DNA from: Gemmiger sp. An194
Lineage (GTDB): Bacteria; Bacillota; Clostridia; Oscillospirales; Ruminococcaceae
Assembly (NCBI RefSeq): GCF_002160145.1
Contig: NZ_NFKA01000009.1
Location: 1-64,000, forward strand
Reading direction: 5' to 3'
DNA length: 64,000 bases
Part shown: positions 37,335-47,239 of the stretch, piece by piece
Layout of the letters: the number at the start of each line of letters is the position of its first letter
How positions within the stretch are numbered: the first letter of the stretch is position 1
The notes under the pieces: generated by a model
Database searches by the model: none
Seen by the model: only the letters and a program-made list of their open reading frames with translations
What the model was told of the DNA's origin: nothing
Translations under genes and position numbers: made by a program

Positions 37335-37367
37335 AAAAGCCCCGATCGTTTTGATCGGGGCTTTTTT
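37335..37367 (+). terminator. Terminator after the YesL-type gene
   Basis: AAAGCCCCGATC/GATCGGGGCTTT stem followed by T6. Confidence 0.9.
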
Positions 37368-37384: not shown

Positions 37385-37413
37385 TTGCAAACAATTTGCC
37401 GCTGTGATACAAT
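37385..37413 (+). promoter_or_regulatory. Promoter of the MFS leader transcript
   Basis: TTGCAA (-35) and TACAAT (-10) at the ideal 17-base spacing, giving a leader of about 150 bases before the MFS gene. Confidence 0.75.
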
Positions 37414-37460
37414 AAAGCAAATTTCCGGGTCAATTCGCCCCGCATCAGGAGAATCTGTCT

Positions 37461-37478
37461 ATGAACCGTCCCATCTAA
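37461..37478 (+). CDS. Possible five-codon leader peptide (MNRPI)
   Basis: ATG AAC CGT CCC ATC TAA is preceded by CAGGAG at a nine-base spacing. Bases 37464-37471 (AACCGTCC), inside the leader frame, are complementary to GGACGGTT at 37555-37562, next to the MFS ribosome site region. A ribosome paused on the leader would free the downstream sequence. This matches the logic of erm/mef-type attenuation; the peptide itself is not known to me. Confidence 0.45.
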   Translation: MNRPI

Positions 37479-37566
37479 ACATATCTCACAGGCGTAACGG
37501 CCGCTTTGTGCAACTGTGCAAAGCGGTGTTTGCTGTGCGGTATTTTCAGACAAAGGACGGTTTTTT
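37464..37566 (+). promoter_or_regulatory. Attenuator-like hairpins ahead of the MFS gene
   Basis: The outer stem AACCGTCC/GGACGGTT ends in TTTTTT, like an intrinsic terminator, and it encloses a local hairpin CCGCTTTG/CAAAGCGG (37501-37508 with 37519-37526). The AAAGGAC before the MFS start would also be sequestered. Leader translation could switch the fold. Confidence 0.5.
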
Positions 37567-37572
37567 GTTATT

Positions 37573-38736
37573 ATGAAAAGCAAACGGAACATCCGGCTGA
37601 TGTATGCCATTGCCCTGTTGCAGGGCATGGCGTTCTACGGGCCGATCGCCACCCTGTACCGTCAGGCGGCGGGGGTGAGCGTTTTTCAGATCACCCTGAT
37701 CGAGAGCATCTCGCTGGCGCTGGCGCTGGCGCTGGAGGTGCCCTGGGGCATTCTGGCCGACCGGATCGGCTATCGCCGGTCCATGATCGTATGCTGCGGG
37801 CTGTATTTTCTTTCCAAAATCGTGTTCTGGCAGGCCAGTGGCTTCGGCGGTTTTCTGGCCGAGCGGCTGATGCTCAGCGTGGTCTGCGCCGGGCTTTCCG
37901 GCCTGGATGTAAGCATCCTGTATCTTTCCTGCCCGGAAGAGGAAAGTCACCGGGTCTTCGGCATCTACAACAATCTGGGCATGGCCGGGCTGTTGACTGC
38001 CAGCGCCGTATATGCAGTGTTCGTGGGCGAAAATTACCGGCTGGCGGGCCTGCTCACCGTGTTCAGCTACGGAGCCGCGGCGGTGCTGGCGCTCTTTCTG
38101 CGGGAGGTGCATCCCAGCCAGGCGAGAACCGCCAGCCACCAGCTGGCGGATTTCGCCGCGCTGCTGAAACAGCTGGCACGCAGCCCCCGGCTGCTGCTTC
38201 TGGTGCTGGCGGCGGCATTTCTGAACGAGGCGCACCAGACCATCACCACCTTTTTGAATCAGGTGCAATATACCAGGGCCGGACTTTCGGCCAGCGCCAT
38301 CGCCGTGGTCTATGTGGTCATGACGCTGCTGGGCCTGTGCGGCGGGTTTTCCGCCCGGCTCACCGGCTGGCTGGGGGAGCGGCGCACCGGCGGGCTTCTG
38401 CTGGGCCTGGCGGCTGCCGCCTGCCTGGCGCTGACGCTGACGCAGGGACCACTGGTTTCGGTGGCGGCAATTTTACTGCTGCGGGTCTGCCACAGCCTGT
38501 TCACCCCCTTGCAGACCACGCTGCAGAACCGGCAGGTGACCACCGGCGACCGGGCCACCGCGCTGAGCCTGAATGCACTGCTCATGGACACGGTGGCCGT
38601 GTTCACCAATCTGGTATTCGGCCGGGCAGCGGATGTATTTCTGCCACTGGCCATGGGCTTCGGTTTCGCGCTCTGCTTCGCCGGACTGGTGCTGTATCTG
38701 GCCAGCAGCCGCCCGAAAACCGGCAGTCTCCAATAA
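37573..38736 (+). CDS. MFS drug-type exporter, 387 aa
   Basis: A twelve-helix major facilitator protein. The loop 2-3 signature is GILADRIGYRRSM and the N-terminal half carries YGPIATLYRQAAGVSVFQITLIESISLA. The size and layout resemble DHA1/macrolide-efflux-type exporters more than sugar transporters, but the substrate is unknown. No good ribosome site lies at normal distance; AAAGGACGG is 15 or more bases before the ATG and takes part in a predicted leader stem, so translation may be conditional. It is a single gene with a strong terminator, not part of the maltodextrin operon. Confidence 0.85.
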   Translation: MKSKRNIRLMYAIALLQGMAFYGPIATLYRQAAGVSVFQITLIESISLALALALEVPWGILADRIGYRRSMIVCCGLYFLSKIVFWQASGFGGFLAERLMLSVVCAGLSGLDVSILYLSCPEEESHRVFGIYNNLGMAGLLTASAVYAVFVGENYRLAGLLTVFSYGAAAVLALFLREVHPSQARTASHQLADFAALLKQLARSPRLLLLVLAAAFLNEAHQTITTFLNQVQYTRAGLSASAIAVVYVVMTLLGLCGGFSARLTGWLGERRTGGLLLGLAAAACLALTLTQGPLVSVAAILLLRVCHSLFTPLQTTLQNRQVTTGDRATALSLNALLMDTVAVFTNLVFGRAADVFLPLAMGFGFALCFAGLVLYLASSRPKTGSLQ

Positions 38737-47025: not shown

Positions 47026-47047
47026 GTGAAAGAACGGAACAAAACCC

Positions 47048-47216
47048 CAATAGCGCCACCACTTTGTTCAAGTGAGAGTGCGCCGCCCACTGGACGACAC
47101 CCCAACAAACACCCCGCTGCCGCGCGGAAATCTGTTTCGGCAAACCGCCTCTTCCCGCAAAGATCTTTGGCCGGCAGGCCTCCCTTTGCGGTACCATACG
47201 GTTTGCGCCTCTATTG
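47048..47216 (-). ncRNA. Lysine riboswitch (L box)
   Basis: Read on the minus strand, the outer P1 helix pairs CAATAGAGGCGC with GCGCTATTG. Inside it lie the L-box features: ATAGAGGCGCAAAC, a GTA-containing turn, a hairpin GCAAACCG/CGGTTTGC with nested CCGCAAAG/CTTTGCGG, GGAAGAGG and GCCGAAAC, then GGTGGCGC before the closing strand. Length (169 bases), order of motifs and the following terminator match lysine riboswitches. Glycine riboswitch features are absent. Confidence 0.85.
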
Positions 47217-47239
47217 TGTGGTATTCAATTTCCTTTCCT

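Follow-up and report, generated by a model that had tools for sequence, protein, structure and literature searches.

The short region ahead of an MFS transporter gene in Gemmiger sp. An194 is probably a ribosome-mediated attenuator, in which a ribosome arrested by a drug on a five-codon leader would free the expression of the transporter. The most likely inducers would be drugs that act in the ribosomal exit tunnel. This proposal derives from comparative sequence analysis of the window, the 64,000-nucleotide stretch of DNA analysed here, and of homologous loci throughout Bacillota.

Layout and conservation of the leader region

The leader region comprises the following features, given in window coordinates.

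37385–37413, + strand: promoter TTGCAA-17-TACAAT with TG before the -10 element (read from the sequence; kept in three sister species)
37447–37451, + strand: Shine-Dalgarno (SD) sequence AGGAG of the leader ORF (read from the sequence; invariant across the genus alignment)
37461–37478, + strand: leader ORF, MNRPI-stop, ATG AAC CGT CCC ATC TAA (leaders of the same type in 26 genera)
37463–37471, + strand: 5' arm of the regulatory stem, formed by leader codons 2–4, GAACCGTCC
37472–37554, + strand: hairpin interior, a lower helix and a stable hairpin at about 37500–37527, joining both arms
37553–37557, + strand: AAGGA, the MFS ribosome site, which the stem buries in part
37555–37563, + strand: 3' arm of the stem, GGACGGTTT, overlapping AAGGA and running into T6
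37561–37566, + strand: T6 tract right after the GC part of the stem, a putative intrinsic terminator
37573–38736, + strand: MFS transporter gene, 387 aa, the putative regulated target, with its ATG at 37573

The original prediction had described a five-codon ORF with its own ribosome site and leader codons complementary to the region around the ribosome site of the exporter, ending in T6. Both descriptions held, with GAACCGTCC pairing to GGACGGTTT. The promoter that it had called strong is present, with the small correction that in silico it has nine of 12 consensus matches and an extended -10 element. The small membrane-protein gene upstream of the leader region has its own terminator at about 37338–37366. 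The predicted fold of the 216-nt leader has an energy of -65.6 kcal/mol, compared to -54.2 ± 4.4 kcal/mol for dinucleotide shuffles (z = -2.6), with three of 200 shuffles being as good. Rfam covariance models gave no match at the leader locus or in seven relatives. Elsewhere in the same window, a lysine riboswitch is found at 47043–47221 on the minus strand (Rfam RF00168, 66.5 bits).

The public records closest to the genome of the window belong to the Gemmiger/Fournierella group, namely Gemmiger sp. An50, An87, and Fournierella massiliensis. The DNA from the -35 box to the MFS start aligns closely in three sister species, whereas the DNA just upstream does not, and the promoter, SD sequence, leader, stem, and T-run are all kept in these species. 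The MNRPI peptide is identical in four of four species of the genus; the sole differences between their leaders are a synonymous change from CGT to CGC in An50 and a stop codon change from TAA to TGA in F. massiliensis. In all four, the tract after the stem is T6–T7, and the genus thus shows the arrangement of an intrinsic terminator, a GC-rich stem with a U-tract directly after it. No xPx leader was found ahead of the MFS paralogues of the genus (L006–L009, 27–29% identity). One of these paralogues, L006 from a sister species (27% identity; minus-strand gene), has a near-perfect hairpin, TCCTTTCCGAAA...TTTTCGGAAAGGATTTTTTG, immediately upstream of its MFS start that would end in T6. This hairpin would bury the ribosome site of the paralogue and is possibly a different attenuator.

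The putative target matches the Pfam family MFS_1 (1.3e-28), and its AlphaFold model (pLDDT 86) has an MFS fold. Foldseek searches with this model returned MFS folds without discriminating between them (NorA, YajR, and VMAT2, at about 15% identity). No close relative with a solved structure was found. In an NCBIfam scan, no model for Mef, lincosamide, or phenicol efflux claimed the protein, the only hits being below cutoff, for example to Cmx/CmrA. That the protein is an exporter is plausible from its regulation.

Leaders and their pairing across the transporter family

Homologues were sought in whole genomes at the genus, family, order, class, and phylum levels, and on plasmids. The set was restricted to start-resolved homologues, with protein identities of 26–96% and from 26 genera of Bacillota; the paralogues L006–L009 were set apart, and the partial gene L033 has no readable leader. 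A mini-ORF lies upstream of every start-resolved homologue examined. Nearly all of these mini-ORFs have three to eight codons and their own ribosome site, all have a start and a stop codon, and they are usually located about 100 nt ahead of the gene. UGA and UAA are both common as stop codons. MNRPI itself recurs in Roseburia, a member of a different order, and in one additional genus, where two species have it. Plasmid-borne homologues were found only in Roseburia (52% identity, MNRPI) and Paraclostridium (26% identity, MHLQD).

Proline is the penultimate residue of the leader in 19 of the 26 genera; the initial count was 18 of 25, to which the leader of L028 was added afterwards. Leaders of this kind include MNSPT, MNRPH, MKSPT, MNCPI, MNSPI, MNLPN, MPQPS, MSCPI, VCRPV, MRKPI, MNNPI, MRSNPT, MSRFPL, MNMYSPI, and a 12-codon peptide ending in LLNNPT. 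The leaders of the remaining seven genera are MQNRLH, MNNVLH, MMVDI, MRH, MIYICTP, MHLQD, and MALI, and either the inducer differs in these genera or the proline is not essential. The MNRPI leader emphasized in the original prediction is thus present, but the informative feature of the peptide is the penultimate proline, x-P-x-stop, rather than this particular sequence.

Several loci depart from the common arrangement. In L045, from a Paraclostridium bifermentans plasmid (MFS start at 1498), a short CCCC...GGGG hairpin extends over the ribosome site. L046–L048 combine MALI-stop leaders with a 14-bp stem (around TTTGATGTACACC / GGTGTACATCAAA) that lies mostly after the leader, which is the same design with a different peptide and perhaps a different inducer. 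In L013 and L023, the distance from leader to gene is increased to 175 and 147 nt, respectively, by a second large inserted hairpin, and the pairing of the leader with the ribosome site is kept.

An SD-preceded ORF of 3–12 codons was present in 100% of the real upstream regions compared to 15% of shuffles, and one with a penultimate proline in 72% compared to 1% of dinucleotide shuffles (25 genera in each case), percentages that are descriptive, the real regions having been delimited around leaders picked by eye. Because of this delimitation, the argument rests on a partner-swap permutation of 21 loci, each from a different genus as the set then stood. Duplexes of leader and ribosome-site region had a mean energy of -18.6 kcal/mol for matched partners compared to -11.4 kcal/mol (sd 0.8) for swapped partners, and the observed value was not matched in any of 20,000 permutations; the pairing region includes the bases just after the leader stop codon, from which part of the energy gain derives. 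The permutation was used in place of a covariance model, for which the MAFFT alignment of the divergent leaders was too poor. In nearly every case, the minimum free energy fold of the single sequence assigns the leader to the 5' arm and the MFS ribosome site to the 3' arm. These comparisons show that the pairing between leader and ribosome site is under selection.

The leader peptide, beyond the RNA alone, is likewise under selection. The proline stays penultimate as the leader changes in length (5, 6, 7, 8, or 12 codons), and in L022 and L034 its codon falls in unpaired bases. All four proline codons occur among the leaders (CCC 13, CCG 7, CCA 3, and CCT 1). Third codon positions are more variable than first and second positions, a comparison that is informative, in a set chosen for proline, only for the third-position freedom of the proline codon and for the neighbouring Asn and Ile codons. 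I, T, and H account for most terminal residues. On the transporter tree, many branches of which are weak, the xPx label requires three changes, a number as low as which was reached in seven of 500 shuffles; this is consistent with xPx being an old trait that was lost or replaced in a few lineages.

Two pattern searches extended beyond the transporter family. Neither GGAG..ATGAAYNNNCCNAYNTRA in 295 genomes nor AGG..ATGAAYNNNCCNATHTRA in 331 genomes revealed an MNxP[I/T] leader ahead of any other gene family, both patterns being narrow enough to miss variants. Apart from the window, the hits lie inside long reading frames or have no convincing complementarity. Taken with the conservation of leader and stem in the genus, their recurrence with covariation across the MFS family in Bacillota supports well the ribosome-sensing switch that had been predicted from the window; loss of the leader and stem in relatives had been named at the outset as grounds for abandoning that prediction, and both are conserved.

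Proposed mechanism and candidate inducers

A simple model would be as follows. With translation at normal speed, the ribosome would leave the leader and the hairpin would form, upon which transcription would stop at the T tract, the ribosome site would stay buried, or both, and the transporter would remain off. A drug would arrest the ribosome either while the P site holds proline and the A site the final sense codon, or on the stop codon that follows. The arrested ribosome would cover the 5' arm and prevent the hairpin, leaving the ribosome site free and, in the genus, preventing termination at T6, and the transporter would be made. The MFS protein would then export the inducer or something accompanying the inducer.

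The form of the block may vary within the family. A T-run follows the stem in the genus of the window and in several others, and loci of this type would be likely to use transcription termination. In L022, L034, L036, L046, and others, the ribosome site is buried and no T-run follows, which would leave them with a block of translation. Since such relatives exist, the step common to the set is argued to be burial of the ribosome site rather than termination; the T6 terminator of the original prediction stands for the genus but does not apply generally. In the window, AAGGA is separated from the MFS ATG by 15 nt, which is longer than usual. Because of this spacing, translation control may be weaker there and termination more important.

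The position of the 5' arm relative to the leader constrains where a ribosome would have to stall. Counted from the first base of the penultimate codon, the arm has its 3' end 0–17 nt downstream in 33 of 34 leaders, a geometry that approximates the reach of a ribosome stalled with this codon in the P site. In L035, L036, L046, and L049, the arm opposite the ribosome site is found at ORF nucleotides 15–27, where a ribosome halted on the start codon would not cover it. Drugs whose only action is on initiation or the first peptide bond are therefore disfavoured.

Macrolides are the leading candidate for the inducer, at slightly less than even confidence, because x-P-(x) motifs, fMet-Ala-X-Pro-(Trp) among them, have been published as sites of arrest by erythromycin. 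Inverse toeprinting with erythromycin yielded XP(X) arrest motifs with proline in the P site (PMC6238534; reviewed in PMC13410324), and arrest at fMet-Ala-X-Pro-(Trp), assayed in vivo, agrees with the in vitro result; these data were obtained with E. coli ribosomes (PMC6238534). The XPX motif is present in the leader of the window and in 19 of the 26 genera, with seven genera lacking it. MNxP(I/T/H) is nearly the same as fMet-Ala-X-Pro-(Trp), but the A-site residue is not Trp. The synthetic fMAXP(W) construct resembles MNxP(I) in that proline is fourth in the nascent chain, and it arrests with this proline in the P site; it differs in having Trp in the A site and in being a laboratory construct in E. 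coli, and XP(W) covers just a part of XP(X) (PMC6238534). By analogy to the action of erythromycin on MsrDL, a stall caused by blocked termination at the stop codon would be an equally good placement (PMC10314930).

Alternatively, the same attenuator could respond to a drug other than a macrolide, such as a phenicol, a lincosamide, a pleuromutilin, hygromycin A, another peptidyl-transferase drug, or an undiscovered natural gut antibiotic, which would arrest the ribosome on x-Pro-x, beside it, or in the course of termination at the stop codon that follows. This is a serious possibility, if still below even confidence, in view of an MFS family that has no relationship to Mef. The predominance of I, T, and H as terminal residues and a Pro-x-stop spacing that is fixed to the stop codon, not to the start, would suit a termination block, as documented for MsrDL, though with erythromycin (PMC10314930). 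Any such drug that holds the ribosome at the start codon would leave the 5' arms of L035, L036, L046, and L049 uncovered. We also know of no published arrest motif from another drug class that is centred on proline in a four-residue chain.

Two further explanations dispense with a drug or with the leader peptide. It is improbable that the leader senses general translation stress, the supply of proline or its tRNA, or EF-P activity. Proline is the one conserved sense codon, and proline codons are slow in the absence of EF-P, but the leaders have a single proline, with neither Pro-Pro nor a stretch of codons specifying one amino acid, the target encodes an MFS transporter and does not belong to a proline pathway, and versions of the leader that have no proline exist. 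Translation of the leader could also be incidental: expression would then be set by the hairpin, acting by itself or through a bound ligand or protein, and the mini-ORF would have arisen as a by-product of the anti-ribosome-site strand. Such a reading is highly improbable. The resemblance of proline codons (CCN) to the anti-SD sequence and the maintenance of the hairpin with covariation speak for it; the ribosome site that accompanies nearly every leader, and the start and stop codons found in all, speak against it. Where present, the proline is in frame and next to last, the third base of its codon is free, and this codon is unpaired in L022 and L034. The hairpin interior, for its part, is too little conserved for an aptamer, and there is no Rfam match.

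Relation to known leaders and significance

The attenuation mechanism proposed for the MFS leader is of a known kind, represented by MsrDL, Mef(E)L, the Erm leaders, and vmlR; the leader class appears to be new. In the MsrDL-msr(D) attenuator, the leader is similarly very short (the hexapeptide MYLIFM), and the stalled ribosome, by covering the first half of the terminator, allows the resistance gene to be expressed, much as is proposed here; that terminator is an intrinsic one (PMC10314930). In contrast to the leaders described here, for which the drug response is putative, the MsrDL peptide contains no proline, its target is an ABC-F translation factor, and UAA is strongly preferred (PMC10314930). 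Mef(E)L / Mef(A)L of mef/mel (MTASMRLR) also precedes an MFS gene and involves an intrinsic terminator in Gram-positives, and it is a macrolide-inducible leader ahead of an efflux gene, where induction and efflux are both putative in the present case (PMC4335068). It differs in its eight codons, its +X+ (RLR) motif, and alternative stems within a 327-nt region (PMC4335068), compared to five codons, x-P-x, and a single hairpin in the window, whose strands are supplied directly by leader codons and ribosome site.

In the Erm leaders (ErmCL and ErmDL), which act by translational attenuation, ribosome arrest uncovers the ribosome site of the resistance gene, as proposed here; their peptides are longer, they usually have several alternating stems, and their targets are Erm proteins. 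The vmlR uORF attenuator shares with the proposed mechanism the combination of termination and ribosome-site sequestration under the control of a ribosome stalled on the uORF (PMC9226507). It differs in its antiterminator/anti-antiterminator design, its ABC-F target, and the resistance conferred, to lincosamides, pleuromutilins, and streptogramin A (PMC9226507).

MNRPI occurs in no paper of the open-access literature searched, and open-access titles and abstracts on related topics contain no description of the x-P-x mini-leader, of its fusion with an anti-ribosome-site strand, or of this MFS family. Somewhat tentatively, M-(N)-x-P-(I/T/H)-stop can be put forward as an undescribed minimal class of drug sensor, widespread in Clostridia and other Bacillota, in which XPX would act as a natural switch for an uncharacterised exporter family and the leader codons would serve as both peptide sensor and anti-ribosome-site strand. 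To our knowledge, the XPX arrest motif has so far come only from in vitro selection and synthetic reporters. If the proposal is correct, the leaders would show the XPX macrolide arrest motif put to regulatory use in nature, in a sensor so short that the functions of peptide and RNA strand are fused in about 15 nt. They would provide a small, mutable system for the arrest of a four-residue nascent chain with proline in the P site. More generally, a whole uncharacterised MFS family of gut Clostridia would be marked as antibiotic-inducible, with substrates that could be guessed from the inducer.
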